From contig NZ_JAFIQX010000003.1 of the NCBI RefSeq assembly GCF_017356035.1, positions 558,001 through 622,000 on the forward strand: 64,000 nt of DNA, written 5' to 3'. The notes under the pieces are model-generated. The model ran no database searches. It saw nothing but the letters and a program-made list of their open reading frames with translations, and was not told the origin of the DNA. The position numbers and the translations under genes were made by a program. The stretch is from Longitalea luteola. Lineage in GTDB: Bacteria; Bacteroidota; Bacteroidia; Chitinophagales; Chitinophagaceae. Shown here piece by piece: positions 2,798 through 63,807 of the stretch; the stretch's first letter is position 1, and the number at the start of each line of letters is the position of its first letter.

Positions 2798-2831
2798 TGT
2801 GATAATTTGATAATGTGATGATGTGATAATG
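2798..2831. repeat. Octamer array, unit TGTGATAA
   Basis: Four in-register 8-bp units of the form TGTGATAA, TTTGATAA, TGTGATGA, TGTGATAA begin 7 bases after the nirB stop codon. The same octamer family, in reverse complement, recurs at 13321-13375, 29714-29749 and 59526-59689. Confidence 0.85.
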
Positions 2832-3261
2832 GAAATACAGGGTAATGGTATCCGCATAACGGCGGAATGAGGCCCGGCAATTAAAGGCCATTGACCAGGC
2901 AGCAGATAATAAGCAACACATTCAATTGGCAACGTGCAACAGATCAAAAGATCATTGCCAATTTCTTCTGATAACTTTCTGATATACTAAAACACTCACA
3001 CACATTTGCTATGTGGCCGACCGCCTGTTGGCTGGTCCTGGCTGCGTATTCTAACGATTGTTTGCCTGCATAACTGACGTTAGGCGAATGCCAATAGGTT
3101 ATAGCTAACAGTTCGGACAATAGAACTCAATAGACGAGTTTGAAATTGCCGGATTAGCCAATTGCGCATTGCCAATTGTCAATTGATTTTTCCCCCATTC
3201 GATGCCATAAGAAAAATGATCAGTGATAGCTGAGCCGGAATTTTTTTGTAAACACAATGAT
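2832..3261. other. nirB-nirD intergenic region
   Basis: No convincing gene is seen in these 430 bases. The region is dominated by low-complexity word-like sequence, including a heptamer array at 3157-3184. An ORF-free gap of this size between nirB and nirD is long for partners that are normally adjacent, so nirD may have its own promoter here; none is obvious. Confidence 0.5.
3157..3184. repeat. Heptamer array, unit GCCAATT
   Basis: Four in-register 7-bp units (GCCAATT, GCGCATT, GCCAATT, GTCAATT) followed by GATTTTT, located 78 bases before the nirD start. Confidence 0.75.
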
Positions 3262-3624
3262 ATGTTTATGATACAAGAAAAAGTAATTACCTGGTTTTTA
3301 GCCTGCCGTACAACAGACGTGCCCCAAAACGGAGGCGTATGTGTAAAATACCAGGACGAACAAATTGCGTTGTTCAATTTCAGCCGCCGGGGTGAGTGGT
3401 ACGCTACGCAGAATCTTTGTCCGCACCGCATGCAGATGGCCCTTAGCCGCGGGATGATCGGAACACAAAATGATGAGCCCAAAGTGGCTTGTCCATTCCA
3501 CAAGAAAACATTTTCACTGGCTTCAGGAAAATGTTTGAGTGGCGATGATTGCGGTGATATAAAAACATATCCCGTAAAAATTGAAAATGACCTTGTATAT
3601 ATAGGTGTAGAAGATAATGAGTAG
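3262..3624 (+). CDS. nirD: Nitrite reductase small subunit NirD (Rieske-type)
   Basis: Small subunit of the assimilatory NAD(P)H nitrite reductase, partner of NirB. It is a Rieske-like [2Fe-2S] domain: Cys53-Pro-His55 in the first cluster loop and Cys77-Pro-Phe-His80 in the second. Many stand-alone NirD proteins have lost cluster ligands; here all four (two Cys, two His) are present, so this copy can plausibly hold a cluster. The reading frame opens at 3223, but the first residues there do not look like the family; ATG codons at 3262 and 3268 are better and cannot be separated by sequence alone. Length is about 118-120 residues, normal for the family. Confidence 0.9.
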   Translation: MFMIQEKVITWFLACRTTDVPQNGGVCVKYQDEQIALFNFSRRGEWYATQNLCPHRMQMALSRGMIGTQNDEPKVACPFHKKTFSLASGKCLSGDDCGDIKTYPVKIENDLVYIGVEDNE

Positions 3625-3790
3625 TAATGTGCAATAATGCCCTGCCAAACGGATGGGGCTGGTTGTAAGAGATGATTCTATCGGTTGCCTGCTTATGCGT
3701 TTGAACGATTGTCTGCCATATTTCAAAACCCAATTGCTTATTAAAATTCACTGCATGGTAAGAACAAAAAACGCCAAAACCGAATAAAAA

Positions 3791-3817
3791 CCCCGGCAGA
3801 TGGCAGTCTGACCGGGG
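3791..3817. terminator. Strong GC hairpin upstream of the porin gene
   Basis: Stem CCCCGGCAGA (3791-3800) pairs with TCTG plus CCGGGG (3807-3817, one bulged A) around a 6-base loop. On the plus strand no T-run follows; on the minus strand the stem is followed by a T-rich tract. It therefore looks like a rho-independent terminator facing left, or a structured 5' leader element of the porin mRNA. No minus-strand gene that would need it is visible. Confidence 0.55.
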
Positions 3818-3869
3818 GGAAGCAAATCACGACAAATGAATCATCGTCTTAAACAACCAAAACAAAATT

Positions 3870-5426: not shown

Positions 5427-5454
5427 ACGGTAATGGTGAATGACCAATTAGTTC

Positions 5455-5528
5455 GTTACCGGTTTCCGGGGCTGAAAATCGGAGCTCAAAAAAAAATCTG
5501 GCGGCCTGCTTTCCCGGTAACTGGTAAC
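5455..5528. repeat. Inverted repeat with heptamer-type right arm
   Basis: The left arm at 5455-5470 (GTTACCGGTTTCCGGG) and right arm at 5513-5528 (CCCGGTAACTGGTAAC) are complementary at 14 of 16 positions. The 42-base loop contains nine consecutive A. The right side continues as in-register heptamers of the CGGTAAC/CGGCAAC kind to about 5560. It lies between the porin and narK genes and could act as an mRNA hairpin. Confidence 0.75.
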
Positions 5529-5599
5529 CGGCCCTGAAACCGGCAACCGCCAACTGAAGAAAAACGACACAAATTTTAAAACGCATTAATCTATAAAAT

Positions 5600-13233: not shown

Positions 13234-13378
13234 AATTAGCAAATGTGTAAATGAATACACCCGACGCGGGTGTAACGGGCAGTTTGCAGTTGGCAATCGG
13301 CAATAACTGGCAGCATGTGTATTTCATTATCACATCATCACATTATCATATTAGCACATTAGCAAATTAGCACATTGC
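13234..13378. repeat. Composite inverted octamer/heptamer element between convergent genes
   Basis: The left arm at 13234-13260 (ATTAGCAAATGTG-like, ending ATACAC) is the approximate reverse complement of the right arm at 13317-13378 (GTGTATTTCATTATCAC and further in-register octamers such as ATTATCAC, ATTAGCAC, ATTAGCAA). The loop holds a small heptamer array at about 13277-13313 (TTTGCAG, TTGGCAA, TCGGCAA). It sits exactly between the convergent mobA and mocR-type genes, where a two-way terminator would be expected. Confidence 0.75.
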
Positions 13379-13392: not shown

Positions 13393-14832
13393 TCACATCA
13401 TTTTTTTCGTGATGTTCCCTAATATATGAAGGCCCCGCTCTACTTCATCATTCCACGGTTTTCCATAGCCTATGCGCATATAGTTGCTGTAACGATCGGG
13501 CATAGAGAAGATCCTGCCCGGCGCCAGCGATACCTGGTACTTCATCGCCTCCTGGTACAATTGGAATGTATTTACTTTTTTACTCAGCTCCAGCCACAGC
13601 ACAAAACCACCCTGTGGCCTTGATACTTTAATGCCTGGCGGAAAATGATCGAGAATGCCCTGCACATAGCGCAGTTGCTGGGTGTGTAATGCCGTGCGTA
13701 ATTTTTTCAGGTGATAATCGAAGCGGCCCATGGCCAGGAAATTAGCCATGGCCTGCTGCGTAATGGTAACACTCGATATCGTGTGCCGCATTTTCAACCT
13801 TATGAATTGCTCTTTAAAGCGGCCGGGGATCGTCCAGCCGATACGATAACCCGGCGCCAGTGATTTGCTGATAGAAGCGCAGTACAACACCCAGCCTTCG
13901 GTGTCGTAGGTCTTGCAGCAGCGCGGGCGATGATGACCGAAATACAGTTCCCCATAAATATCATCTTCGATCAGCGGAATGCGGTGTTTGGTGATCAGTT
14001 CCACCAGTGCCTTTTTATTTTCATCAGGCATGCAACAGCCCAGCGGGTTGTTAAAACTGGGCACGAACACACAGGCTTTGATGTTTGATTTTTTAATGGC
14101 CTGCTCAAAATAATTGAGGTCAATACCGGTTACTGCATCGGTGGGTATTTCAATAACATGTAAGCCCAATGTCTCCATTACCTGGAAGATGCCAAAGAAA
14201 GTAGGCGTTTCAATAGCTACCGTATCACCCGGCCGCGTAACGGCTTGCAGCGACAGTGACAATGCCTCCATACAACCGGCGGTGATCACCACATCATTGG
14301 CAGTAATTTTTCCGCCCCAGTTAAAAGCCATCCTCGCTACCTGGTTACGCAGTTCCAGGTTGCCCTGCACATCTTCGTATTGAATACAACTGGTGGGCGA
14401 TTGGCGAAAGGCATGCACTAAAGATTTATTCAGTTTGGCCGCAGGCAATAACTCCGTAGCTGGTGCTGCAACAGCCAGATTGGTGATGTCGGTAGCGCTC
14501 AGTTTTTTAAAAACGGCAGCTACCATTTCATCAACGCTTACTGTACCGGCCAGCGTTTCGGGATGGGGTGCAGCAGGCAGGGCCGGAAAACGTTTTTGAT
14601 TAAAGCGAACGTAGTAGCCCGATTTGGGGCGCGATTCAATGAGACCCTTGCCTTCGAGGTAATAATATGCCTGGAAGGCGGTACCCATGCTGATGCCGTA
14701 TTCCTCGCTCAGCATGCGTACGGAAGGCAGCTTGTCGCCGATCTTCAAGATCTCGTTATAAATCATCTGCTCCAGGCTTCCCGCGATCTGAAGATACAGG
14801 TGATCCGGGCCGTTCAGTTTGTTCTTGTGCAT
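13393..14832 (-). CDS. MocR-type GntR regulator with aminotransferase domain
   Basis: A 479-residue transcription factor of the GntR/MocR class: an N-terminal winged helix-turn-helix (DKLPSVRMLSEEYGISMGTAFQAYYYLEGKGLI, residues about 35-70) joined to a fold-type I PLP aminotransferase domain. The PLP lysine is Lys323 in the SISKSLAPGYR motif. Such proteins sense PLP or amino-acid-related ligands; the target here cannot be told from sequence. The reading frame extends 28 codons further upstream, but those residues do not fit the family, and the HTH begins soon after the ATG at 14832, so I chose that. It is convergent with mobA and codirectional with rpiA, with no obvious operon partner. Confidence 0.88.
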   Translation of the reverse strand: MHKNKLNGPDHLYLQIAGSLEQMIYNEILKIGDKLPSVRMLSEEYGISMGTAFQAYYYLEGKGLIESRPKSGYYVRFNQKRFPALPAAPHPETLAGTVSVDEMVAAVFKKLSATDITNLAVAAPATELLPAAKLNKSLVHAFRQSPTSCIQYEDVQGNLELRNQVARMAFNWGGKITANDVVITAGCMEALSLSLQAVTRPGDTVAIETPTFFGIFQVMETLGLHVIEIPTDAVTGIDLNYFEQAIKKSNIKACVFVPSFNNPLGCCMPDENKKALVELITKHRIPLIEDDIYGELYFGHHRPRCCKTYDTEGWVLYCASISKSLAPGYRIGWTIPGRFKEQFIRLKMRHTISSVTITQQAMANFLAMGRFDYHLKKLRTALHTQQLRYVQGILDHFPPGIKVSRPQGGFVLWLELSKKVNTFQLYQEAMKYQVSLAPGRIFSMPDRYSNYMRIGYGKPWNDEVERGLHILGNITKKMM

Positions 14833-15722: not shown

Positions 15723-15864
15723 ACAGTGAAGGTAATTTGAAATATTGTGAATTGAACAGTGGGCAAAAACATTCTCTTAACCTGTATTGCCAGTTAATAT
15801 AATGTATTTAACTGCAAAGGCGAGGTGGTAGGTTCAAAAATGCTCTCGCATCCGGCCTCGGGCG

Positions 15865-15953
15865 GCTGGTAACTGGTAACCGGTAACTGATGGTGACTCG
15901 CAACTGGCAATTGATAACAGGTAACCGCCGAGTGATCGGCAACTGGTAACTGC
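15865..15953. repeat. Heptamer array, unit TGGTAAC/CGGTAAC
   Basis: Runs of 7-bp units such as TGGTAAC, TGGTAAC, CGGTAAC, then TCGCAAC, TGGCAAT, TGATAAC, AGGTAAC, and again TGGTAAC, with two short interruptions. It ends 8 bases before the 3' end of the LacI-type gene. The same words recur at 17561-17574 and 5513-5528. The rest of the rpiA-lacI gap shows nothing else. Confidence 0.8.
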
Positions 15954-17144: not shown

Positions 17145-17651
17145 AATTAGAATTTTTGAAAACTCCTGTATTTATTGCTACAAATTGTTCGCTGGAATTG
17201 ATAAGTGCTCCTGTTGCCGCACCGGGCCGGGCGTAACTATCAGCAATCACCTACCGAATCCTTCTGATTAGCAGATGGTGCCTGGGACGTAGTCATAAAC
17301 CTGTTTCAGTACCCCAAATAAGGCTTAACGCAGTATGCTTAACCTGCCTGCCGGCTTTGCTTCGCCAAAGGCGCAGCATTCAGGCGCGGAACGCTGCATG
17401 CTCAATGTTTAACGCAAGATCCTGTCAAAAGCGGAAAGTGCATAGCAATAGCGTTTGCGCATGCGCATGCAAAATAGCGCTATAGTCTCAACGTGAGCCG
17501 AAATAACCATGATGCGGTTACGACAATGTAACCTGCAACCTGTAACCGGCTCCCGGCACCTGGTAACCGGTAACTGAAAGCCAGAATACCAACAACGATT
17601 GCTATACGAAATAAAAATGACTTGTTGTTCCTAACTTAAAAGAGTCGCCAT
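17145..17651 (+). other. Long leader region upstream of susC
   Basis: No gene is seen. If module 1 is the susC promoter, the mRNA leader is about 500 bases. It holds a GCGCATGCGC palindrome at 17457-17466 within a larger foldable stretch (17440-17485), a CCTGCCTGCCGGC half-palindrome at 17344-17356 that is shared with 56146-56165, and a heptamer array at 17526-17574. Another AACGATTGC at 17594-17602 has no -7 box at the usual spacing. A second promoter nearer to susC cannot be excluded. Confidence 0.45.
17526..17574. repeat. Seven-unit heptamer array, unit CTGTAAC/CGGTAAC
   Basis: Seven consecutive 7-bp units in perfect register: ATGTAAC, CTGCAAC, CTGTAAC, CGGCTCC, CGGCACC, TGGTAAC, CGGTAAC. 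The third and fourth bases vary while the terminal AAC or ACC is kept. It lies 78 bases before the susC start codon. Confidence 0.88.
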
Positions 17652-20600
17652 ATGAGTAAATTAAAACAATTACCAGCACTGCTGTTATTCATTCCATTTT
17701 TTCTGCAAGCACAAACCCGGCAAATAACGGGAACGGTCACTGATGACAGAGGAGCGCCGGCTGCCAACGTTACTGTACAGGTTAAGGGCGGGCGGGCTGT
17801 GCAAACGGATGCTAAAGGCCAGTTTACCGTTCCTGCCACCGGCACAGGCAATATAAGTCTTACATTGTCCAGTGTGGGCTTCAAACCGGTAACCATAACC
17901 GCAGATGGTACCCGGGATGTGCGCGTTCAGCTGGAGCGTGATGCTGCTACCCTGCAGGAAGTGGTGATCGGTTATCAAACCGTTCCCCGAAGTAAAGTCA
18001 GTGGTTCGGTGTCATCCATTGCTGCGAAACAAATAAAAGACGTACCGTTGGCCTCAGCAGCCGAAGCCCTGCAGGGCCGGCTGGCCGGTGTTCAGGTAAC
18101 CGCCACAGAAGGCGCGCCCGGTTCTGAGGTCGTTGTACGGGTACGTGGCGGCGGCTCCATAACCCAGGATAATTCGCCCCTGTACATTGTTGATGGGGTG
18201 GTGGTCGAAAACGCCCTGAGTGTGATCTCACCGCAGGATATCGCTTCCATCGACGTTTTGAAAGATGCTTCCACCACTGCTATCTATGGCGCGCGTGCTG
18301 CCAACGGAGTAGTGATCATTACCACCAAAGGAGGCCGGCCTGGCAAAACGCAGATCACCTACAATGGCGCTTTTGGCTGGCGGGAGCTGCCCGAGACCAT
18401 GGAAGTAATGAGCCCCTATGATTTCGTGCGCTGGCAATACGAAAGAAGCCGCGGCAACCGCGAAGACAGCATCAGCTTTGTTCGCACCTATGGCAGCACG
18501 TGGGATACGCTTAACGTTTATAAAGACCTGCCGGCCATCAACTGGCAAAGTGAAGTGTTTGGCCAAAAGGCAAAGTTCAATAACCAGAACCTGGCGCTGA
18601 ATGGCGGCGGTGAGAACACTACCTTCAATTTAAGCCTTACCAGCAACAGGGAAGATGGGATCTTGATAGAATCGGGTTTCGATCGCAAACTGGTGAACTT
18701 TAAACTGGAACACAGGGCATCGGATAAATTGAGAATAGGGTTTAATGCCCGTTATCTCGATCAAACCATTCGCGGCGCCGGTACTACCAACAGCGGCACG
18801 CGCGCTACCAACCGCCTCCGCCATACCATAAACTACCGGCCATTTGAACTGCCGACCCCAGCCGGCGGCATCGATGATTTTGATGAAGCGTATTTTCTCG
18901 CATCCAGCGGCGCTATCAATCCCGTATTATTAACCAGGGCCGAATACCGGCGTCAATATACAAAAGCCACTTACCTGAGTGGTTTCTTCAATTACACCAT
19001 TGTAAAGAACCTGAGTTTACGCTCTACGTTTGGCTATGACAATGCGGTGGTTGAAACAGACCTCTTCTTTAGTAAGATCACTCCAACAGCGCGCAATTTC
19101 GCCTCCCTGCCGGTGGCATCTATAGGCGAGCAATACAACAATACCCTCACCAACTCAAACGTATTGCAGTACAACCTGGCGAACTATAAAGGTAAACACG
19201 ATATCAACGTACTGATAGGGCAGGAGGTGATCGACCAACGAGTGCGCACAAGCGCTTTTGAGACCCGCTATTTTCCTTCAGATATTTCGGCCGAAAAAGC
19301 GTTGGAGAACATGGGTGCCGGCTCGGCGCCTCCAGGCTCATCGCAACCATTGCCCACGACCTTTACGCAACCACCCAGCCGCATTTTCTCCTGGTTTGGC
19401 CGGGCAAGTTATGAGTTTGACGATAAGTACGCCGCTACCTTTAACCTGCGGGCCGACCGCTCTTCCAAATTTGCATCTGAAAATGGAACACTCGTTTTCC
19501 CGTCAGGATCGGTGTCGTGGCGTTTCAGCCAGGAAGATTTTATGCAAGATCTCTCGTGGGTGAACGATGCCAAACTACGTTTCGGTTACGGATCGGTGGG
19601 AAACAACCGCATCGACAACCTGCTATATCTGCAATTATACGGGGTAACGGGTCAGTATGCATTTAATCATATCATTCAACCCGGGGTAGCGCCAGTTTAC
19701 CTGCGTAACCCTGATCTGCGATGGGAACGGAATACCAACATGAACCTGGGAATGGATTGGTCGCTGTTCAATAACCGCCTGCAGTTTACGGTGGATGTAT
19801 ATAAGAATTCCGCCAAAGACCTGCTGCTCGCCGTGAACATTCCACCTACCACCGGTTATACGTCGCAGTTGCAGAACCTGGGTGCCACCTCTAACCGCGG
19901 TATTGAATTCCAGATCAATGCCATTCCGGTTTCCAAAAAAGATTTTAGCTGGAACACCAACTTCAATATTTCTTTCAATAAGAACCGGGTCGAAAACCTG
20001 GGGGGCGTAGATGAAATTACCCGTACTTCCGGCTGGCAGGGCAGCGATGGCGTTGATGATTACATCGTAAAAGTAGGCGAGCCTGCCGGTTTGATGTATG
20101 GCTTTGTGACCGAAGGTATGTTCAGTGTGGATGATTTCAATTACAACCCCGCCAATCAAACCTACACCCTGAAACCAGATATTGCCAATAATGGCGTATA
20201 CGGTGTTGCACAACCGGGTATGCTAAAATGGCGTGACATCAGCGGTCCCGATGGGGTGCCTGACGGCATAATAACCGCTGATTATGACCGCGTGGTGGTA
20301 GGCGACGCCAACCCCACATTCACCGGCGGCTGGAACAACCAGCTTGCTTATAAAGGATTTGATCTAAGTGTTTTCGTCAACTTTGTTTATGGCAATGACA
20401 TTTATAATGCCAATAAAATAGAATGGACCGATGGCGCTTTTCCTAACCTGAATATGCTGAACATTATGAAAGACCGCTTTACGTACATCAATGACGCGGG
20501 ACAACGGGTAACCGATCCCAAGGAGCTGGCGGCGTTGAATGAGAACGCCAAGATCTGGACACCGGTGCGGGTACAACGCTGGTGGTTACACTCCTGGGCT

Positions 20601-22847: not shown

Positions 22848-22903
22848 GGCATTATACGCAGCTTTGCAACCGCTCACCTGAAACCTGCATCTTGAAGACT
22901 TTG

Positions 22904-22945
22904 AACTATTAACTGAGAACTGTGAACTGTAAACTGTGAACTCCG
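22904..22945. repeat. Heptamer array, unit AACTGTG
   Basis: Six in-register units: AACTATT, AACTGAG, AACTGTG, AACTGTA, AACTGTG, AACTCCG. The array ends 8 bases before the operator word of promoter module 2, so a change in copy number would alter the region just upstream of that operator. As a rotation the unit equals CTGTAAA, close to the CTGTAAC arrays. Confidence 0.88.
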
Positions 22946-26221: not shown

Positions 26222-26281
26222 TTATTGAGTTATTGGGTTATTGGGTTATTGGGCTATTGAGGGGCTTAATAACTCAATAAC
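26221..26281. repeat. Octamer array GTTATTGG with perfect inverted end
   Basis: Five in-register octamers GTTATTGA, GTTATTGG (three times), GCTATTGA at 26221-26260. The first 14 bases (26221-26234) are an exact reverse complement of 26268-26281, giving a 14-bp hairpin stem. The array begins with the last base of the esterase stop codon. Confidence 0.88.
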
Positions 26282-26310
26282 TGACGAACTAAAACGAGAA
26301 CCAGAATAAG

Positions 26311-27332: not shown

Positions 27333-27353
27333 ACCATTGACCATTCACCATTG
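27333..27353. repeat. Heptamer array ACCATTG/ACCATTC (short copy)
   Basis: Three alternating units ACCATTG, ACCATTC, ACCATTG. The same three units in the same order form half of the array before uxaC at 44217-44258, about 17 kb away. GTTGATAA-like words precede it at 27295-27320. Confidence 0.8.
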
Positions 27354-27373
27354 ACTACAAGAAACCGACTATA

Positions 27374-28978
27374 ATGAAAAAACTGTTTGCACTAAGTTTC
27401 ACACTCTTTAGTTTATATGCCACCGCACAACAGCCATATATTTCCAAAGTGTGGGTGTCAGATAACAAAAATGGAACGTTTAAGAATCCGGTTATTTATG
27501 CTGATTATTCCGACCCCGATGCCTGTCGCGTGGGCGACGATTATTATATGATAGCCTCCAGCTTCGATGCCATTCCGGGACTGCCCATTCTGCATTCTAA
27601 AGACCTCGTAAACTGGACGCTCATCGGCCATGCGTTGAAACGCCAGCCTCCCTACGATCATTTTTCACAACCCCGTCATGGTGGTGGCGTGTGGGCGCCT
27701 TCCATCCGCTATCATAATAACGAGTTCTACATTTATTATCCCGATCCTGATTTCGGCATTTATGTTGTAAAAGCAAAAAACATCAACGGCCCCTGGTCTG
27801 ACCCCATTTTAGTCGAAGGCGGAAAAGGATTGATCGATCCCTGTCCGTTGTGGGACGATGATGGTAAAGTATATCTCGTGCATGCCTATGCAGGCAGCAG
27901 AGCCGGTATAAAAAGTATAATTGTAGTAAAAACACTCGATGCCACAGGCACCAGAGTGACCGATGGTGGCGTACTGGTATTTGATGGGCACGATCAGGAT
28001 CCTACACTGGAAGGTCCAAAATTCTATAAACGCAATGGGTTTTATTACATTTTTGCACCGGCTGGCGGCGTAGCTACCGGCTGGCAACTGGTGTTGCGCT
28101 CAAAAAATATTTATGGTCCTTACGAAAGAAAAGTGGTGATGGACCAGGGCAGCACAAAGATCAACGGTCCACACCAGGGCGCATGGGTCGATACAAAGAC
28201 CGGTGAACACTGGTTCCTGCATTTCCAGGATGTAGGCGCTTATGGCCGTATCGTTCACCTGCAACCGATGAAGTGGGTGAATAACTGGCCGGTGATCGGC
28301 ATTGATAAAGATGGAGATGGTAAAGGGGAGCCGGTGATTGAATATAAAAAGCCGAATGTTGGTAAGAGCTATCCACTACAAACGCCGCAGGAATCGGATG
28401 AGTTCAACGGCCGCACCCTGGCATTACAATGGCAATGGCAGGCCAATCCAAAACCATATTGGGCTTTTCCCGGTAATGGATATCTGCGGTTGTTCAGCGG
28501 TATGGTAGCTGATACCGCAAAGAACCTGTGGTTTGTGCCCAACGTGTTAATGCAGAAATTTCCGGCAGAAGAATTTACGACTACTGTAAAGCTGGATTTT
28601 AAACCCCGGCTGGCAGGCGAGAGAACCGGGTTGATCATAATGGGCTCCGACTATGCATACGTGGGTCTTACTAAAAAAGAAGACGGTATTTATCTATCTT
28701 ATGTGGTTTGCGATAAAGCGGAAGGCGGCAAGCCAGAGCAGGAAAAACTAATTGGTAAAATAAGCGGGGGAACTACCTACCTGCGCGTACAGGTTGGTAA
28801 AGGAGCCAAATGTAATTTCATGTACAGCGAAGATGGAAAAAAATTCACTTCTGCTGGTGATACCTTTACGGCAGTGCCCGGCAGATGGATCGGCGCAAAA
28901 ATCGGATTGTTCTGTACCCGCACTGCAGTTACTAATGATGCAGGCTTTGCCGATATAGATTGGTTCAGGGTTGAATAG
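27374..28978 (+). CDS. GH43 family glycoside hydrolase, probable arabinan/xylan side-chain enzyme
   Basis: 534 residues with a signal peptide (MKKLFALSFTLFSLYATAQQ). The five-bladed beta-propeller of family 43 is seen with its three acidic residues: base Asp47 in YSDPDA, Asp155 in GLIDPCPLWDDDG and the general acid Glu213 in TLEGPKFYKR. The last 200 residues (ESDEFNGRTLALQWQWQ onward) form a beta-sandwich resembling the beta-xylosidase C-terminal/concanavalin-like domain. In a pectin locus the likely role is removal of arabinose from pectin side chains. GH43 has many specificities, so arabinofuranosidase or xylosidase cannot be told apart here. It is the last gene of this operon, followed by a terminator. 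Confidence 0.9.
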   Translation: MKKLFALSFTLFSLYATAQQPYISKVWVSDNKNGTFKNPVIYADYSDPDACRVGDDYYMIASSFDAIPGLPILHSKDLVNWTLIGHALKRQPPYDHFSQPRHGGGVWAPSIRYHNNEFYIYYPDPDFGIYVVKAKNINGPWSDPILVEGGKGLIDPCPLWDDDGKVYLVHAYAGSRAGIKSIIVVKTLDATGTRVTDGGVLVFDGHDQDPTLEGPKFYKRNGFYYIFAPAGGVATGWQLVLRSKNIYGPYERKVVMDQGSTKINGPHQGAWVDTKTGEHWFLHFQDVGAYGRIVHLQPMKWVNNWPVIGIDKDGDGKGEPVIEYKKPNVGKSYPLQTPQESDEFNGRTLALQWQWQANPKPYWAFPGNGYLRLFSGMVADTAKNLWFVPNVLMQKFPAEEFTTTVKLDFKPRLAGERTGLIIMGSDYAYVGLTKKEDGIYLSYVVCDKAEGGKPEQEKLIGKISGGTTYLRVQVGKGAKCNFMYSEDGKKFTSAGDTFTAVPGRWIGAKIGLFCTRTAVTNDAGFADIDWFRVE

Positions 28979-29713: not shown

Positions 29714-29749
29714 TATTATCAATTATCACATTATCAAATTAGCTAATTG
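29714..29749. repeat. Octamer array ATTATCAC-like
   Basis: ATTATCA, ATTATCAC, ATTATCAA, ATTAGCTA then ATTGC, between the sigma and anti-sigma genes. The words are those of 13321-13375 and 59651-59689. Confidence 0.75.
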
Positions 29750-36167: not shown

Positions 36168-36170
36168 GTA

Positions 36171-36209
36171 GTTGACTAGTTGATAAGTTGACTAGTTAAC
36201 GAGTTAAGG
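36171..36209. repeat. Octamer array GTTGACTA after susD2
   Basis: GTTGACTA, GTTGATAA, GTTGACTA, GTTAACGA, GTTAAGG in register starting 4 bases after the susD stop codon. The unit is the same family as 36319-36493 and 61084-61163. Confidence 0.8.
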
Positions 36210-36299: not shown

Positions 36300-36318
36300 A
36301 CCCCGGCCGCCTTTTATA

Positions 36319-36493
36319 GTTGACAAAGTTGAAAAGTTGGCAATGCTGATAGAGTTGACACGTTGACAGAGTTGACAGGTTGATAAAGTTGACAGGTTGA
36401 TAAAGTTGACAAGTTGATAAGGTTACTAGTTAACTGGTAAACAGGTTAACAGGTTAACTGGTTAACTGGTGAACAGGTTAACTGCTTAACAGC
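36319..36493. repeat. Long 8/9-bp array, GTTGACAG then GTTAACWG
   Basis: The first part (36319-36420) is built from GTTGACAA, GTTGACAG, GTTGATAAA and similar 8-9-bp words. From about 36421 it changes to octamers GTTAACTG, GTAAACAG, GTTAACAG, GTTAACTG, GTGAACAG. At roughly 175 bases it is the longest array in the window. There is no gene in the 36168-37041 gap; the rest is terminator, hairpin repeats and promoter module 3. Confidence 0.85.
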
Positions 36494-36551: not shown

Positions 36552-36637
36552 ATTCCCCCTTTAGGGGGTTAGGGAGTATGATTCCCCTTTAGGGGGCTCG
36601 GGGGTACAATTCCCCCTTTAGGGGGTTAGGGGGTATC
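36552..36637. repeat. Three tandem 28-29-bp GC hairpin repeats
   Basis: Three copies (36552-36580, 36581-36608, 36609-36637) each start ATTCCCC(C)TTTAGGGGG and end in a second G-run. Each copy can fold as CCCCC-TTTA-GGGGG. The copies differ at a few positions and one lacks a C. Similar C-run/TTTA/G-run repeats are, from memory, common between genes in Bacteroidota. The many G-runs also permit G-quadruplex folding. Confidence 0.85.
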
Positions 36638-38716: not shown

Positions 38717-38794
38717 GTTGCAGGTTACAAGTTCCAGGGTAGAGGGCCCTTAGAACCTGCAACCCCCTGAAACCTGGAACCTGTAACTTGTAAC
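38717..38794 (+). repeat. Inverted heptamer hairpin between GH28 and GH105-type genes
   Basis: Left units GTTGCAG, GTTACAA, GTTCCAG (38717-38737), a central AGGGCCCT palindrome, and right units CTGCAAC, CTGAAAC, CTGGAAC, CTGTAAC, TTGTAAC (to 38794). The right arm has extra units relative to the left. The three left units are identical, in order, to 61164-61184. Confidence 0.88.
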
Positions 38795-38815
38795 CTTTAT
38801 CTAAAAAAACAACTC

Positions 38816-44114: not shown

Positions 44115-44122
44115 ATTCTAAC

Positions 44123-44153
44123 AAGTGTGCCACACCTCGAGGTGCGGCCACTT
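44123..44153 (+). terminator. Hairpin after uxaA
   Basis: AAGTGTGCCACACCTC (44123-44138) faces GAGGTGCGGCCACTT (44139-44153), a nearly closed stem-loop with a few internal mismatches. There is no T-run on the plus strand, so it may pause or protect mRNA rather than stop transcription. It divides uxaBA from uxaC-kdgKA. Confidence 0.55.
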
Positions 44154-44216
44154 TGAGTTTGAAATAATAATCTTTAATAACTAATAGGAGAGTGGAGAAT
44201 ATAGTGAGCCGATTTC

Positions 44217-44258
44217 ACCATTGACCATTCACCATTGACCATTCACCATTGACCATTC
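44217..44258 (+). repeat. Six-unit heptamer array directly before uxaC
   Basis: ACCATTG and ACCATTC alternate three times in perfect register (42 bases) and end 3 bases before the uxaC ATG. The array thus fills the ribosome-landing region. Changes in copy number would change the distance between the ATG and anything upstream by 7 or 14 bases without touching the coding frame. Confidence 0.9.
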
Positions 44259-44261
44259 ACA

Positions 44262-45662
44262 ATGAAAAAATTTGTTGACGAGCATTTTTTACTGCAAACA
44301 CCCACTGCACAGAAGCTGTACCATGAGTTTGCCAAACAAATGCCCATTATAGATTATCATTGTCATTTACCGCCCGATCAGATTGCCAATGATACCCAAT
44401 TTGAAAATCTGACCCAGATCTGGTTGTATGGCGACCATTACAAATGGCGCGCTATGCGTACCAACGGGGTGAATGAAGAGTATATCACCGGTAATAAAAG
44501 CGATTACGAGAAGTTTGAAAAATGGGCGGAAACCGTTCCATACACTTTACGCAATCCCTTATATCACTGGACGCACCTTGAACTGCAGCGTTATTTTGGA
44601 ATAACTGATATACTGGACGGCAGAACAGCCAAAAAAGTGTACGAAGAAGCTACTGCCAAGCTGCAAACAAAAGAATACTCGGTTCGTGGCCTGCTGCGCA
44701 AGATGAATGTAAAAGTGGTGTGCACCACCGACGATCCCATCGATAACCTCGAGTATCATAAGAAGATCAAAGAAGACGGCTTCGAAATAAAAATATTGCC
44801 TGCATTCCGCCCCGATAAGGCGATGAATGTAGACGATGCCGCTGCCTTCAATGCCTATGTGGCAAAAGTGGAAGCAGCAGCCAATACGTCAATAGGCAGC
44901 TATAGCGATTTTCTGGCTGCGTTAAAAAAGCGGCACGATTTCTTTGCCACCATGAGTTGTTCGGTTAGTGACCATGGCCTCGAGCAGATCTATGCAGAAG
45001 ACTATACCGAGACCGAGATCAAAAATGCCTTCGCCAAGATCAGAAGCGGCAAAGAACTGTCGCTCGAAGAGAACCTGAAATTCAAATCAGCCATGCTGGT
45101 GGAATTTGCCAAATGGGATTGGGAAAAGGGCTGGGTACAACAATATCACCTGGGCGCGCTGCGCAACAACAACAGCCGCATGCTGAAACGGCTCGGTCCC
45201 GATACCGGTTGGGATTCAATCGGTGATTTCTCACAGGGGCGCCAACTCGCTAAGTTCCTCAACAAACTCGATACAGAGAATCAACTGGCAAAAACCATTC
45301 TTTACAACCTGAACCCAGCCGATAATGAGCTGATGGCTACCATGATCGGTAACTTTAACGACGGCAGCGTAGCAGGAAAGATCCAGTTCGGTTCGGGCTG
45401 GTGGTTCCTCGATCAGAAAGACGGTATGACCAAACAGATCAATGCCCTGTCGAACATGGGATTGCTGAGCAGGTTTGTAGGAATGCTGACAGACTCAAGA
45501 AGTTTCCTGTCGTACCCCCGTCACGAATATTTCCGGCGCCTGCTGTGTAACATGTTTGGTGACGATATCGAAAATGGCGAATTGCCGGCTGATATCGACT
45601 GGGTAGGAAAAGTGATCCAGGACATTTGTTTTAACAACGCTAAAAACTACTTCAACTGGTAA
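44262..45662 (+). CDS. uxaC: Glucuronate (uronate) isomerase UxaC
   Basis: Isomerises D-galacturonate to D-tagaturonate (and glucuronate to fructuronate), the first step of the pathway. 466 residues. The metal-dependent hydrolase-like fold opens with IIDYHCHLPP (His-x-His near residues 33-35), and CTTDDPIDNLEYHKKI near 150 and the terminal DSRSFLSYPRHEYFRRLLCN block are typical of UxaC. The stop overlaps the kdgK start as TAATG. The first 3 bases after the heptamer array lead directly to this start codon. Confidence 0.95.
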   Translation: MKKFVDEHFLLQTPTAQKLYHEFAKQMPIIDYHCHLPPDQIANDTQFENLTQIWLYGDHYKWRAMRTNGVNEEYITGNKSDYEKFEKWAETVPYTLRNPLYHWTHLELQRYFGITDILDGRTAKKVYEEATAKLQTKEYSVRGLLRKMNVKVVCTTDDPIDNLEYHKKIKEDGFEIKILPAFRPDKAMNVDDAAAFNAYVAKVEAAANTSIGSYSDFLAALKKRHDFFATMSCSVSDHGLEQIYAEDYTETEIKNAFAKIRSGKELSLEENLKFKSAMLVEFAKWDWEKGWVQQYHLGALRNNNSRMLKRLGPDTGWDSIGDFSQGRQLAKFLNKLDTENQLAKTILYNLNPADNELMATMIGNFNDGSVAGKIQFGSGWWFLDQKDGMTKQINALSNMGLLSRFVGMLTDSRSFLSYPRHEYFRRLLCNMFGDDIENGELPADIDWVGKVIQDICFNNAKNYFNW

Positions 45663-53563: not shown

Positions 53564-53690
53564 GCTTAACGCTTAATGCTTAACGGCGGTCGTCTGTTGT
53601 TTTCATATAGCTCAGGCACAGAAAGCCGGCCGGCAAACAGGGCATTTTGCGTTTCGCGTTAAGCGTTCTGCGTTCAGCATTCAGCATAAA
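53564..53690. repeat. Inverted heptamer arrays GCTTAAC / GCGTTCA
   Basis: Left: GCTTAAC, GCTTAAT, GCTTAAC (53564-53584). Right: six in-register units GCGTTTC, GCGTTAA, GCGTTCT, GCGTTCA, GCATTCA, GCATAAA (53649-53690). GTTAAGC formed on the right is the reverse complement of the left unit. The 53469-53800 gap between MFS and DUF892 genes holds no gene; it has these arrays and a minus-strand terminator. Confidence 0.85.
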
Positions 53691-54361: not shown

Positions 54362-54469
54362 ACAAAGTGTTTAATAGAATTATAAAAAAGGGGCAGGGTT
54401 TAATTTCTTTTAACAGTGCTTGCGAAGGTGTAGGTTGCAATTATTATACCCCCGATCGTACGTTATTAA

Positions 54470-54699
54470 ATGGGGATCGATGTTGCTGAAGCAGAAGCGA
54501 TCGATGAACCATGGTATGAGGAAGATCATGTGAGAAGTGATAGGTTTGCATTTATTTTGAGCAGTATTGATAATGTAGTTCACCTGGTATTATCTTGAAA
54601 ACCAAAGACGGTATTCAGGTGTTTATATCCTGTAGATGGACTGTGGAATGCCTCAATGGCCATTTGGTAATCAATGAGATAGTGGAGGATATGCACTGA
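54470..54699 (+). pseudogene. Possible two-frame remnant of a small gene
   Basis: Within the 384-base gap 54362-54745, ATG 54470 opens a 42-codon frame ending at 54598 (peptide rich in Asp/Glu, with DEPWYEEDHV and FAFILSSIDNVVHLVLS). From 54595, one base back, a second frame runs 34 codons to 54699 (KTKDGIQVFISCRWTVECL, then NGHLVINEIVEDMH). Both parts look protein-like, as if one gene of about 77 codons had suffered a -1 frameshift. No family is recognised, and both frames could be chance. No other feature is seen in this gap. Confidence 0.25.
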
Positions 54700-54745
54700 G
54701 AGATCACATAAATGAGCCAACTGGCCAAAAAAAGATCAGGAACAA

Positions 54746-55729: not shown

Positions 55730-55890
55730 GCCAATGAATAATGGACAATAGGCAGTTGGCAATAGACAATAGACAAAAGGGCAAAAAGGCAACGAGGCAA
55801 AAAGGAACAGTCAAATACAATAGGCAATAGACAATGGACAAAAGGCAAAAAGGCAATCGGCAAACGTGAAACGGCAAACGAGAAACGGAA
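55730..55890. repeat. Long array CAATAGA/CAATAGG to CAAAAAGG
   Basis: Units AATGGAC, AATAGGC, AGTTGGC, AATAGAC, AATAGAC drift into octamers AAAAGGGC, AAAAAGGC, AACGAGGC, and the cycle repeats with CAATAGG, CAATAGA, CAATGGA, CAAAAGG, then CAAACGTG and CAAACGAG with AAACGG. About 160 bases, all purine-rich on the plus strand, with a gradual change of consensus and unit length. Confidence 0.8.
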
Positions 55891-56100
55891 AAAACGCAGC
55901 TTACAGGGCTCCGTATCGTCTCTCACTAATAAGCGTTAATTCAATAACTCAAAACTCGTCAATCGGCAACCGGCAATGCTGGCCCGTGCGGCGTTCAACG
56001 TTTTGCGATCAATGTTCTACGTGCAGCTCCTTTACTGGTAACAGTCAACCAGTGATCTCTTTTGGGTGTACTATTAGTCCGCGCTGGCTTTTTGCCTTTT

Positions 56101-56165
56101 GCGTTCAGCGTTCCGCGTGCAGCGTTAAGCGTTTGGCGTTAGGCGCCTGCCTGCCGGCAGGCAGG
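56101..56165. repeat. Six-unit GCGTTNN heptamer array and a 20-bp perfect palindrome
   Basis: GCGTTCA, GCGTTCC, GCGTGCA, GCGTTAA, GCGTTTG, GCGTTAG run in exact register at 56101-56142. Four bases later CCTGCCTGCC and its exact reverse complement form a 20-bp palindrome at 56146-56165. Half of that palindrome also occurs at 17344-17356. Confidence 0.88.
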
Positions 56166-56745: not shown

Positions 56746-56779
56746 CACCGGGCTTGTGTTGTTTAATGTTTTCAATAAA

Positions 56780-56815
56780 AAAGCCCTCCTTACGCATCGG
56801 AGGGCTTTGTTATGA
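56780..56815. terminator. Bidirectional terminator between convergent genes
   Basis: AAAGCCCTCC at 56780-56789 pairs perfectly with GGAGGGCTTT at 56799-56808. T-runs lie on both sides when read from each strand, so it can end the plus-strand unknown gene and the minus-strand metalloprotease. Confidence 0.88.
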
Positions 56816-56817
56816 AC

Positions 56818-56856
56818 AGGTGTGCCACCTTTTCAAGGATGGCACACCTTATTTTT
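56818..56856 (+). terminator. Second hairpin terminator
   Basis: AGGTGTGCCA at 56818-56827 pairs with TGGCACACCT at 56840-56849, followed by TATTTTTTATTT on the plus strand. It touches the 3' end of the metalloprotease gene and acts as a backup plus-strand terminator. Confidence 0.8.
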
Positions 56857-59525: not shown

Positions 59526-59689
59526 CTAATTTGATAATTAGCAAATTTGATAATGTGATAATGAATACAGCTGGTGTATACTAAAGGCAGCGGACCGTAA
59601 GCAAGAGGTATTTCCGGCAACTGGTAACCATTACCTGGTAATTGGTTTTTCATTATCAAATTATCGAATTATCACATTATCACATTAAT
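59526..59689. repeat. Inverted octamer arrays flanking a 90-base core
   Basis: Left octamers CTAATTTG, ATAATTAG, CAAATTTG, ATAATGTG (59526-59563) and right octamers TTATCGAA, TTATCACA, TTATCACA (59651-59689) are reverse complements of each other in their repeating word. The core includes a heptamer stretch with CTGGTAAC. The right arm runs into the -7 box of the small membrane protein gene. Confidence 0.8.
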
Positions 59690-61082: not shown

Positions 61083-61083
61083 G

Positions 61084-61260
61084 GTTAACTAGTTGACAAG
61101 TTAACCAGTTGACGGGTTAACGAGTTGACAGGTTAACCAGTTGATCAGTTGACAGGTTGATAGGTTGCAGGTTACAAGTTCCAGGTTGCAGGGGCAGCGG
61201 GCAGTAAGCATTTTTGAGCTTACAATAGAGCCCTGTACCCTGTATCTTGTAACCTGTAAC
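61084..61260. repeat. Fourteen-unit octamer-to-heptamer array with inverted partner
   Basis: Ten consecutive octamers of consensus GTTRAYNR (61084-61163) pass without a break in register into four heptamers GTTGCAG, GTTACAA, GTTCCAG, GTTGCAG (61164-61191). After a core with a small GTAAGC/GCTTAC hairpin (61204-61223), four reverse-complement-type heptamers CTGTACC, CTGTATC, TTGTAAC, CTGTAAC occupy 61233-61260. Three of the left heptamers are identical, in order, to 38717-38737. It fills the gap before lpxB. Confidence 0.92.
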
Positions 61261-61303
61261 GCCTTACTACATTCAATTAGTTTCCAGCATTTACTACACG
61301 CTT

Positions 61304-61600: not shown

Positions 61601-62397
61601 TACAGTTTCCAGGTTTTTTCGAGCTTATCTTTCAGTTGATAGTTGGTCAGGTCAAATTGCACCGGTACAACGCTCACATAATTATTGGCAAGGGCCCACA
61701 CATCAGTATCTTTCCCTTTGTCGAAATTTACAAACTCACCGGTGAGCCAGTAATATTTACGGCCATTGGGGTCGTTGCGTTCGATAAAATCCTCTTCATA
61801 TTTCGCATAGGCCTGGCGGCAGATACGGATACCTTTGATCAGGTCGGGGGCAACAGGTGGGAAGTTTACATTCAATACCGTATGTTTCTCCGGCGTGCTT
61901 TGCAGCATCTGCTCAACAATGATCCGGGCATATTGGCGGGCAGCGCTAAAATCGGCTTCAATACTGTAATCCAGCAGCGAAAAACCTACCGAAGGAATGC
62001 TTTCAATGGCAGCTTCCACGGCGGCCGACATGGTGCCTGAGTAAATAACGTTGATCGAGTGATTGGCCCCGTGATTGATGCCGCTCAAACACAGATCGGG
62101 TTTACGGCGCAGGATCTTGTCAACGGCCAGCTTAACGCAATCAACCGGCGTGCCGGAGCACTGGTAGGCTTCAACCCCATCAAAGAACGTGCTCACCGGG
62201 CTCAGCCGCAGGGGCTGACCAATGGTAATGGCATGACCCATGCCTGATTGTGGTTTATCGGGGGCAACAACAATTATCTTTCCGAGATCTTTAACTGCTT
62301 CTACCAGATTGTGTATACCCGGTGCTGTTATACCATCGTCATTAGTTACCAGAATAACGGGTTTCGCTGCATTTGCTGCTTTCTTCTTTTTTGCCAT
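61600..62397 (-). CDS. surE: 5'/3'-nucleotidase SurE
   Basis: Metal-dependent phosphatase acting on nucleoside monophosphates. 265 residues with the family opening ILVTNDDGITAPGI, in which Asp20 and Asp21 bind the metal, QSGMGHAIT near residue 50, CSGTPVDCVKLAVDKI near 80, and SGINHGANHSINVIYSGTMSAA near 105, all SurE signatures. The N-terminus carries a short Lys/Ala-rich tail. The next gene overlaps it by one base. Confidence 0.95.
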   Translation of the reverse strand: MAKKKKAANAAKPVILVTNDDGITAPGIHNLVEAVKDLGKIIVVAPDKPQSGMGHAITIGQPLRLSPVSTFFDGVEAYQCSGTPVDCVKLAVDKILRRKPDLCLSGINHGANHSINVIYSGTMSAAVEAAIESIPSVGFSLLDYSIEADFSAARQYARIIVEQMLQSTPEKHTVLNVNFPPVAPDLIKGIRICRQAYAKYEEDFIERNDPNGRKYYWLTGEFVNFDKGKDTDVWALANNYVSVVPVQFDLTNYQLKDKLEKTWKL

Positions 62398-62763
62398 ATC
62401 TTATAACAAAAATGCTGAAAATTTCCATCAATTACGTTAAATACACGAAATAAGTGCAAGGCAGATCGATCCCGTGAATTATGGTTTGGATATCCTTACC
62501 TCCTGATTAAAACGATATTATTCCACGAACATTATAAATCTGCATACTATTTTATCGGCAATCGTCAAACGGCAGGATGGCAATGCCTGTCGCCATGCAC
62601 CGCGAGGTACCGATCCGTGACCGGCGTTGGGGAAAGAACCCCGGTTTCCGGCCGGTAAAAAGCGGCGACCACACACCTTGAACTTTGAACCGGGAACTGT
62701 AAGCTCACCACTGTGAAGTGGTTTACGGGGGTAAAATTTCGTGGAATTTTGGCAGCTTTCCGC
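62398..62763. other. Divergent surE-atpG intergenic region
   Basis: No gene is seen. It contains the surE promoter (no clear box found), GC-rich hairpin-prone sequence around 62570-62660 (for example CCCCGGTTTCCGGCCGG), a heptamer array at 62678-62705 and a CACCACTGTGAAGTGG hairpin at 62706-62721. The atpG -7 box follows. Confidence 0.5.
62678..62705. repeat. Heptamer array TTGAACT/GGGAACT
   Basis: TTGAACT, TTGAACC, GGGAACT, GTAAGCT in exact register, about 60 bases upstream of the atpG -7 box. Confidence 0.7.
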
Positions 62764-62771
62764 TACCTTTG
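62764..62771 (+). promoter_or_regulatory. -7 box of atpG
   Basis: TACCTTTG matches TAnnTTTG exactly. The upstream -33 region only offers TTTC at 62738-62741 (22-bp spacer). The leader to the ATG would be about 98 bases. Confidence 0.55.
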
Positions 62772-62875
62772 CAGCCGATTAAAACTACAGGTAGGTTTAT
62801 TGATTGTATTTCATTGATTTTTAAAATGTTACAGAAGAATTTACCTGGCAGTGATCAACTAATCAACTTTGCAAC

Positions 62876-63757
62876 ATGGCAGGTCAGTTAAAAGAAGTTC
62901 GTAATAAGATCAAGGCAACCCAGAATATGCAGCAGATTACCAAAGCAATGAAAATGGTAAGCGCTGCCAAATTGAGAAAAGCCCAGGATGCTATCGTTCA
63001 GATGCGTCCTTATGCCCGCAAATTGCAGGAGGTGCTGAGCAATATCGTCAGCAGTGCAGAAAGTGATGCAGGCATGTCACTGGCCGTAGAACGTCCGGTA
63101 GAAAAAGTGTTACTGATCGTTATTACCAGCGACCGCGGATTGTGCGGAGCTTATAATGCCAATGTAATTAAACTGGCCCGTACCACCATCCAGGAAAAAT
63201 ATGCAGCCCAGCAGGCCAAAGGCAACCTGCATATCTGGGGCATTGGTAAAAAAGGAACTGAATTCTTCCAGAAAAATAAATACAAGGTCAGCGATGCGCA
63301 CAAAGACCTGTTCCTGAACCTGAAGTTCGAGAACGTACAGGCTGTTGCCCAGGCTGCTGTAAAAGCATTCGAGGCAAAAGAGTACGATGTAATTGAGCTG
63401 ATCTACAGCGAGTTCCGTAATGCAGCCGTGCAACGTTTCGCAGTAGAGCGTTTCCTGCCTATTCCTAAAGTTGAAAAGAAAGAAGGCGCTAAAAAGAGCG
63501 ACTTCATTTTCGAACCTGCCAAAGACCAGCTGATCGCTGAGCTGATGCCCAAGATCCTGAATACACAATTGTACAAAGCAGTACTCGATGCCAATGCTTC
63601 TGAACATGGCGCACGGATGACTGCTATGGATAAAGCCAGCGAAAACGCCAATGAATTATTAAAGCACTATAAAATATCTTACAACCGGGCTCGTCAGGCA
63701 GCCATCACGACCGAGTTGACAGAGATCGTGAGTGGTGCAGCGGCATTACAAGGTTAA
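62876..63757 (+). CDS. atpG: F1 ATP synthase gamma subunit
   Basis: Central stalk subunit of F1Fo ATP synthase. 293 residues with the conserved N-terminal helix (LKEVRNKIKATQNMQQITKAMKMVSAAKLRKAQ) and C-terminal helix (RMTAMDKASENANELLKHYKISYNRARQAAITTELTEIVSGAAAL), and the ITSDRGLCGAYNAN block near residues 82-95. The preceding DNA holds no atpA, so gamma is not encoded directly after alpha here; the next gene is scpB-like. Confidence 0.96.
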   Translation: MAGQLKEVRNKIKATQNMQQITKAMKMVSAAKLRKAQDAIVQMRPYARKLQEVLSNIVSSAESDAGMSLAVERPVEKVLLIVITSDRGLCGAYNANVIKLARTTIQEKYAAQQAKGNLHIWGIGKKGTEFFQKNKYKVSDAHKDLFLNLKFENVQAVAQAAVKAFEAKEYDVIELIYSEFRNAAVQRFAVERFLPIPKVEKKEGAKKSDFIFEPAKDQLIAELMPKILNTQLYKAVLDANASEHGARMTAMDKASENANELLKHYKISYNRARQAAITTELTEIVSGAAALQG

Positions 63758-63768
63758 GACAGTTTATA

Positions 63769-63807
63769 GTTTATAGTTGTTGTTACCTGCTAACAACAGC
63801 TATAAAC
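63769..63807 (+). terminator. Near-perfect 17-bp hairpin between atpG and scpB
   Basis: 63769-63785 and 63791-63807 are reverse complements at 16 of 17 positions (the exception can be a G-U pair), with loop CCTGC. The left arm starts with two AGTTTAT heptamers, so it belongs to the same style of element as the arrays elsewhere. No T-run follows. Confidence 0.75.

Follow-up and report, generated by a model that had tools for sequence, protein, structure and literature searches.

Directional arrays of degenerate 7- and 8-nucleotide words in the intergenic gaps of Longitalea luteola

The intergenic gaps of Longitalea luteola (Chitinophagaceae) carry tandem arrays of degenerate words, 7 or 8 nt long, which follow common rules of period, direction and pairing. 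We studied these arrays in a stretch of 64,000 nt, bases 558,001-622,000 of contig 33 (C33) of the 7.3-Mb genome (hereafter the window), in a 1.6-Mb sample of the same genome (929 gaps; 310.5 kb intergenic and 1,288 kb coding) and in the sister species G007, the nearest relative in our genome set (reciprocal best proteins, median identity 92.5%). For comparison we used 13 stretches from other Niastella and 80 loci from other members of the Bacteroidota. Gene boundaries came from a simple codon-score caller, not annotation, and start positions may be misplaced. It is certain that the observed pattern of periods 7 and 8 is real; as to its meaning, we tentatively favor the reading that the arrays form a genome-wide class of directional binding modules for a putative protein at the borders of transcription units.

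In the 35 intergenic segments of the window (8,569 nt), letters matched at lag 7 in 32.7% of cases and at lag 8 in 29.8%, versus 25.9 and 25.8% in 50 dinucleotide-preserving shuffles (z 13.2 and 7.4), while lags 6, 9 and 10 gave z-values of 0.4, 0.5 and -1.2; matches in the coding sequence of the window were 24.9% at lag 7 and 24.2% at lag 8. A period scan of the 1.6-Mb sample, which retained arrays above a fixed score and used three shuffles as comparison, returned 311 period-7 and 157 period-8 intergenic arrays versus 3.0 and 2.7 in the shuffles. Coding sequence yielded 15 and 8, so that the gaps are about 85-fold denser. The excess over shuffles and over genes that had been proposed in a preliminary description of the window is therefore clearly present. 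That description had also taken coding sequence to be free of arrays, which holds as strong depletion and not as absence, and it had placed arrays in most gaps longer than about 60 nt, which was too strong: the window has 31 arrays in 17 of its 33 gaps of at least 60 nt, and arrays occur in 310/828 gaps of the larger sample.

Periods 5, 6, 9 and 10 were near background in the 1.6-Mb sample (2, 5, 3 and 2 arrays versus 3.0, 2.0, 3.0 and 1.7 in shuffles), periods 4, 11, 12 and 13 gave 15, 10, 7 and 8 arrays versus 2.0-3.3, and periods 14, 16, 21 and 24 are multiples of 7 or 8. The sister has 50 period-7 and 50 period-8 arrays in 60.6 kb, and the other Niastella have 52 and 13, plus 6 period-9 and 4 period-11 arrays. 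The word-free scan of other Bacteroidota (82 kb; L083-L088 and L090 were excluded as Niastella or sister and L089 was counted with Niastella) gave 25 and 15 arrays, and no other period between 4 and 13 exceeded 3 arrays. A search of the phylum matched 6/247 genomes, L. luteola included, although it covers a single word and the backwards control used with it also repeats every 7 nt and so is not a null. In a genome from another family of the order (G189), that control had 78 matches (YGGYYAA triples), and this genome may use another 7-mer word; the one 20-kb stretch of it that we examined held no period-7 or period-8 arrays.

The repeat words named at the outset (GTTNCAR, ACCATTS and others) exist as recurring families. 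The octamer families are F0 ATYAKCNN (reverse strand TGTGATAA), F8 GTYAACNN and F4 AAATCNNN, and the heptamer families are F1 GNAACYG, F2 CYTGNAA, F5 ACCATTS, F6 GCGTTNN, F7 CAATNGN and F9 AACTNNN. They recur at many loci, where the variable positions draw on the same few alternatives, and the anchor letters are about 90-100% constant in most of them. Triple ACCATTS, with one mismatch allowed, has 148 + 166 occurrences in the genome, its backwards control 0. Among the counted families, runs of at least three units are mostly 3-5 units of 7 or 8 nt. Anchor runs of F0 peak at four units (28 of three, 45 of four, 18 of five, 4 of six and 1 of eight), F8 and F6 are near-equal at three and four (10, 11 and 3 runs of three, four and five units in F8; 8, 9 and 2 in F6) and both F2 (44, 34 and 11) and F1 (14 runs of three and 4 of four) have more at three; the pooled peaks at four are biased by the detection threshold. 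The edges of the arrays are sharp, the anchor match being 0.32-0.34 two unit slots beyond the array (background 0.29; slot 1 is biased by partial units). Directional growth of arrays was considered and rejected, anchor conservation being equal from either end. F0 also has an inner cap, the in-register octamer TGTATT[TC]C, which lies inside 22/96 modules and outside 1/96 (in the sister, 7 inside and 3 outside, of 42 modules). Besides this cap, a k-mer test for a shared interior found only a few hexamers (6-10/96 cases) and leftover array words.

Within F0, ATTATC dominates in 400 kb of C33 and ATTAGC dominates the syntenic stretch of the sister, and the pooled ratio of loci with a T to those with a G majority is 33:24 in L. 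luteola versus 3:19 in the sister (P = 0.0004). Counts of triple words in the whole genomes, L. luteola versus sister, are 36/20 for the CATTATCAC type, 7/35 for the CATCAGCAC type and 3/5 for the CATTAGCAC type. A clean genome-wide species dialect was nevertheless rejected, because contigs of the L. luteola genome differ among themselves (16:6, 3:9, 5:3 and 9:6, ties omitted); F0 is better described as subfamilies with shifted shares. The difference between C33 and C11 (16:6 versus 3:9 loci) looks as if neighborhoods had been homogenized locally. Ideas that the words are all-frame stop codons, Rho sites (YC spacing) or Fur-like GATAAT arrays were dropped, judged by eye only, because several families lack the feature in question.

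A strict rule concerns direction. Labeling as W the strand that leads in the facing pairs of a word family, we find that adjacent opposite-strand pairs of the same family in the 1.6-Mb sample (anchor runs) have the order W followed by its reverse complement (W...rcW) in 44/44 cases, with the reverse order in 0. These pairs belong to F0 (21), F2 (20), F1 (2) and F6 (1); families F8, F5, F4 and F9 gave no pairs in this sample at anchor-run settings. An earlier, partly overlapping scan of both species had found 46 pairs, of which 44 had the same order and two F7 pairs were alike under the opposite label, every family being consistent in itself. The preliminary description had arrays facing arrays of reverse-complement units, and this is borne out: inverted complementarity exceeds z = 3 in 53 and 45% of orthologous gaps with arrays in both species, in 48% of those with arrays only in L. 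luteola, in 22% of those with arrays only in the sister (9 gaps) and in about 20% of those without arrays, where fractions and medians are used because some z-values for very short gaps are meaningless (zero variance).

Polarity extends to the surrounding genes. The open reading frame (ORF) on the 5' side of W is the nearer one in 271/342 family runs (F0 79/96, F2 82/97, F6 26/29), and F8, whose word is near-palindromic, shows no side preference (15/31). Another detection in three data sets gave 153/186 (median 29.5 versus 155 nt), and a half-gap measure gave 166/206, with 102/125 among arrays alone of their family in the gap. On the outward strand G exceeds C in 286 versus 134 arrays (sister 61 versus 28; other Niastella 42 versus 16; in other Bacteroidota 20 versus 11, not significant). 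Clusters had been described as lying close to stop and start codons; flushness is strong for stops, with 21/134 within 2 nt versus 2.8 expected (sister 18/103 versus 3.5), and weak for starts, with 6/128 versus 1.9 (sister 2/85 versus 1.1; combined 8/213 versus 3.0). Arrays take up the largest share of sequence in the 125 nt or so next to stops and in convergent gaps, where 14.9 and 18.3% of bases lie in arrays as against 6-9% in tandem and divergent gaps, and the smallest share within 25 nt of starts. The motif TANNTTTG, which we take to be promoter-like in Bacteroidota, lies downstream of 12/58 start-side arrays and upstream of 1/58; because it sits between array and gene, start-side arrays tend to lie outside the leader. 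The idea that arrays near starts are leader elements consequently found little support, given the weak flushness, the low share near starts and the downstream TANNTTTG.

Arrays of the window, among them some that illustrate pairing and contact with codons, are as follows.

2796-2831, plus strand: F0 8-mer array (TGTGATAA words, orientation W), directly after the stop codon ending at 2791.
3161-3185, minus strand: 7-mer array of CAATTGG type.
13320-13376, minus strand: F0 array of CATTATCA words, reverse of W, whose left edge carries the inner cap TGTATTTC.
15848-15925, minus strand: degenerate 7-mer array of GGTAACYG-like units; no word model fits at the cut-off.
17527-17574, minus strand: 7-mer array of GTAACCG/CCTGTAA type, reverse of W, upstream of the gene at 17652.
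22898-22942, minus strand: 7-mer array of AACTGTR type, reverse of W.
26222-26290, plus strand: 8-mer array TTATTGRG, directly after a stop codon and facing AATAACTC units.
27333-27355, minus strand: 7-mer array ACCATTS, reverse of W, upstream of the gene at 27374.
29722-29748, minus strand: F0 array, an exception to the side rule.
36169-36207, plus strand: 8-mer array GTTRACNN, beginning at a stop codon.
36318-36493, plus strand: long 8-mer arrays GTTGAYNN / GTTAACNN.
38766-38799, minus strand: 7-mer array CCTGNAA, reverse of W; its W partner ends near 38746.
44214-44260, minus strand: 7-mer array ACCATTS with G and C alternating, ending 1 nt before the start codon at 44262.
53564-53583, plus strand: left arm (W) of a GCGTTNN-family pair.
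53642-53687, minus strand: right arm (reverse of W) of the same pair.
55733-55892, plus strand: mixed 7- and 8-mer arrays CAATAGG / AGGCAAA.
56087-56145, minus strand: 7-mer array GCGTTNN, reverse of W.
59527-59563, plus strand: F0 left arm (W), with a cap-like GAATACA on its inner side.
59652-59687, minus strand: F0 right arm (reverse of W).
61084-61167, plus strand: 8-mer array GTTRACNN, partly alternating GTTAAC/GTTGAC (period 16).
61162-61192, plus strand: left arm (W) of a CCTGNAA-family pair.
61231-61260, minus strand: right arm (reverse of W) of the same pair.
63761-63778, plus strand: 7-mer array AGTTTAT, directly after the stop codon ending at 63757 and followed by ATAAAC sequence.

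Neighboring units alternate in two of these arrays, ACCATTG/ACCATTC at 44214-44260 and GTTAAC/GTTGAC at 61084-61144, giving dimer periods of 14 and 16.

The order of units within arrays bears on how the arrays arise. Neighboring units were not significantly more alike than permuted ones in F0, F8, F5, F2, F1 and F6 of L. luteola or in F0, F2 and F1 of the sister, although F2 leans towards likeness (P = 0.16 and 0.08). F0 neighbors were even less alike than permuted (1.61 versus 1.40, P = 0.001; sister 1.73 versus 1.65, P = 0.11), and identical neighbors were not in excess in the pooled arrays of three sets (76, 40 and 40 versus 77.7, 40.3 and 36.8). Between loci, a first test in 400 kb had pointed to an absence of copying and proved too small; in 1.6 Mb, exact 32-mers are shared by 38 gap pairs versus 10.2 under unit permutation, many of them from ACCATTS, AAATCTC and other near-uniform arrays, and there is a weak order signal. 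Some whole arrays are identical at two loci, the identity stopping near the array edge. Relative to permutation, shared unit strings are in excess in F2 (three-unit 31 versus 18.3, P = 0.003; four-unit 3 versus 0.7) and in F0 (four-unit 4 versus 1.5, P = 0.03), and nearest-neighbor distances of four-unit windows are short (F0 2.36 versus 2.54, sister 2.50 versus 2.91, F2 1.92 versus 2.27). Relative to first-order resampling, none of the five families tested showed an excess of shared strings (F0 three-unit 34 versus 43.9, four-unit 4 versus 3.0). Some copying of whole modules between loci is therefore likely, but as an account of the bulk of the arrays it was not demonstrated by these tests.

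Comparison of the two species revealed how readily arrays come and go. Among 196 orthologous gaps, 108 lack arrays in both, 30 have the same word, 20 have another word, 27 have arrays only in L. luteola and 11 have them only in the sister. Where L. luteola has a GTTACC pair at one locus, the sister has a ATTAGCAC pair. Among gaps of up to 500 nt, those with arrays only in L. luteola exceed their sister counterparts by a median of 72 bp (23 gaps), those with arrays only in the sister are longer in the sister by 60 bp (9 gaps) and array-free gaps differ by 0 (98 gaps). Of 214 arrays of at least three units, 117 had no counterpart in the sister, 31 were retained and 66 lay between, and 2 were near-perfect. 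The unmatched arrays were not significantly more uniform than the retained ones (adjacent mismatch 0.227 versus 0.204, P = 0.13), a comparison in which the former may include losses in the sister and in which, the species not being close, young arrays may have had time to vary.

What could have produced arrays that obey such rules and yet turn over so quickly? Our tentative preference for binding modules, a cause already named in the preliminary description as arrays for a sequence-modular nucleic-acid-binding protein, has as its basis the near-exclusive periods 7 and 8, the fixed anchors, the set variable positions, the recurring families, the polarity, the W...rcW pairs, the clustering at stops, the F0 peak at four units, the F0 inner cap, the sharp array edges and the position of TANNTTTG downstream of start-side arrays. 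Each unit would be one contact site of a sequence-specific nucleic-acid-binding protein, or of several paralogues, which would dock in 7- or 8-nt steps and in one direction only; a module of about 28-36 nt would mark or insulate the border of a transcription unit; and selection would preserve the anchor letters, their spacing and the direction even as units, and modules as a whole, came and went. Several observations weigh against this. So many words would require many readers or one very tolerant reader, and a binding protein has been neither sought nor found. Turnover is fast, since 30 of the 88 orthologous gaps in which either species has an array retain the same word, as against 20 with a different one and 38 where arrays occur in one species only. 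The side rule has 71/342 exceptions, and 122/328 arrays fit none of the word models. Units resemble the other members of their own array somewhat more than they would if dealt at random among loci (F0 1.39 versus 1.54, F6 1.28 versus 1.48), and in F7 and F4, which were outside the permutation test, neighbors are closer than non-neighbors in some sets. When all arrays are pooled, neighbors are more alike than permuted in three sets (z -12.3, -15.8 and -10.8), as local duplication predicts, although this pool includes mixed-word and out-of-register arrays and detection itself selects for likeness.

The main rival, which we rank next and regard as possible but on the doubtful side, is that the arrays are mobile modules similar to REPINs (REP doublets forming hairpins; REP, repetitive extragenic palindromic) or to miniature inverted-repeat transposable elements (MITEs), a putative transposase-type enzyme spreading short inverted elements that end in tandem arrays and single arrays being halves or remnants. 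A fixed pair order is expected of element ends, and the extra length of one-species array gaps (72 and 60 bp versus 0), the F0 inner cap, the arrays identical at two loci up to near their edges, and the shared unit strings and short four-unit distances in F2 and F0 all fit this explanation; but shared strings did not exceed first-order resampling in the five families tested, and no strong shared interior other than the F0 cap emerged from the k-mer test. REP and REPIN elements are short, intergenic and arranged in facing pairs with fixed polarity, which is as here, whereas REPs are single palindromic sequences and the arrays are tandem 7- and 8-mers. We consider it improbable that the arrays are functionless products of replication slippage in 7-8 nt steps followed by decay, with hairpin template switching keeping the arms complementary; slippage with template switching was among the causes listed in the preliminary description. 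Heptamers have been noted as the commonest long repeats in many bacteria and tied to the polymerase footprint (Mrazek 2007, as cited in the passages of PMC4679880 and PMC4692102 drawn on here), a few near-perfect or long uniform arrays exist and pooled neighbors are alike. Simple copying slips are nevertheless insufficient because they do not explain the fixed pair order (44 to 0); in addition, neighbors in the tested families are no more alike than permuted, or even less so in F0, the arms of facing pairs are not complementary unit by unit (best register 1.07 versus 1.11 permuted, P = 0.26), the 117 arrays unmatched in the sister are no more uniform than the 31 retained, near-perfect arrays number 2/214 and F0 run lengths peak at four.

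That same mismatch of the arms in unit order bears on whether the facing arms form RNA hairpins at transcript ends, acting as terminator, RNase barrier or cleavage site, which we judge very unlikely. Arrays are flush with stop codons, they cover more of convergent gaps than of any other kind (14.9 and 18.3% of bases) and, among gaps of 60-350 nt, convergent ones with at least two arrays fold better than those with none (mean z -4.3 versus -2.5). This is only a moderate improvement, and gives little support to the mRNA end-protecting hairpins proposed at the outset; the values are -2.2 versus -1.6 in tandem gaps and -0.8 (only 4 gaps) versus -0.2 in divergent gaps. Moreover, facing pairs also occur in divergent gaps, and 125/206 assigned arrays have no partner of the same family in the gap at half-gap detection. 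An equally remote alternative is a putative telomerase-like enzyme that writes repeat DNA onto 3' ends in gaps from a loose 7-8 nt template, such that arrays would be born degenerate and with W outward. It would account for degenerate arrays without a sister counterpart, for units that are near-exchangeable in several families, for the added DNA in one-species array gaps and for the outward excess of G over C (286 versus 134; sister 61 versus 28); but the many words would need many templates and, by eye among the gaps listed, some orthologous gaps hold old sequence between the arms.

This kind of repeat is already known in bacteria but unexplained. The short tandemly repeated repetitive (STRR) sequences of cyanobacteria are heptanucleotide tandem arrays, and the likeness to them that had been noted for the window is confirmed by the period-7 intergenic arrays, while pairing, polarity and octamers fall outside their description. 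For the relatives that follow, our statements are confined to the passages of each paper drawn on here. Rehm et al. (2015; PMC4692102) described GGGNATC and GGGGA(C/T)T heptads in Xanthomonas and Nostoc for which G-quadruplexes were proposed. These share with the L. luteola arrays the period of 7, the mainly intergenic location and the overlap with stop codons, and they form convergent pairs on the two strands in Xanthomonas, with few paired repeats in Nostoc. GGGNATC heptads also have the nearer ORF on their 5' side whatever its orientation, as here (271/342; 153/186), and prefer four units, where the families here give a mixed picture (a peak at four in F0, near-equal counts at three and four in F8 and F6, more at three in F2 and F1). 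L. luteola differs in its many words and its octamers, and only 1/342 of its family runs has four GGG tracts (28/342 have four GG tracts; at least one GGG occurs in 31/49 F4 runs and 2/96 F0 runs), so that three-layer quadruplexes cannot be the common reason for the placement rules.

In Beggiatoaceae, Cyanobacteria and five Bacteroidetes, MacGregor (2015; PMC4679880) found arrays of the heptamer TAACTGA, so that such repeats, of which the preliminary description knew no account in Bacteroidota, had in fact been described there. These arrays are likewise of period 7, intergenic and made of related words (TAACTG). They lie forward before start codons and, in one set, reverse after the stop codon, differ by 7-nt indels between two close Cyanothece strains and were proposed as translational sites at start codons; by contrast with that study of one word, array share in L. 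luteola is lowest within 25 nt of starts, and 8/213 array-start relations fall within 2 nt versus 3.0 expected. The genome paper of Geobacter metallireducens (2009; PMC2700814) reports sites built of either four GTTGCTYN octamers or five MTYCTGA heptamers in tandem, and a further element that carries two tandem TWGTTGAY 8-mers per strand, as predicted sites of global regulators. Like the arrays here, these are paired on opposite strands at variable distance, although they comprise few classes, whereas L. luteola has many word families, for which we analyzed polarity and turnover. Among the open-licence literature matches listed, there was no report of the pattern in Niastella or Chitinophaga. 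What is new here is the octamers, the many words in one genome, the strict pair order and placement rules that hold with almost no quadruplex-forming arrays.

Earlier reports of heptamer repeats are scattered, each with its own explanation: polymerase slippage, G-quadruplexes, translational sites or IHF/HU sites. A single genome in which many words obey common rules of period, direction and facing pairs allows these explanations to be tested against each other, and it already shows that the placement rules do not require four G-tracts and that simple slippage does not yield a fixed pair order. Could several phyla share one undescribed system that writes or reads directional modules of 7- or 8-nt words at transcription-unit borders? 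In such a system word sets would shift between species and swap within the same gap, modules would appear degenerate, the common rule would be step and direction, not sequence, and the G-quadruplex heptads would be one dialect. We offer this as a speculation that is rather unlikely to hold.

The window contains other features as well. A different, longer repeat, a 29-bp unit of TTCCCCCTTTAGGGGG type present three times in tandem, occupies 36552-36636 between the array clusters and the next gene. Hairpins of GTGTGGCACACC type occur in several gaps (window 44115-44160 and 56746-56855; L023-L042 join 13446-13689) and possibly represent a dispersed terminator-like element. A Pfam look at ten ORFs of the window showed ordinary genes and gave no lead. 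The gap at 54362-54745 resembles, by eye, the remains of a broken gene.

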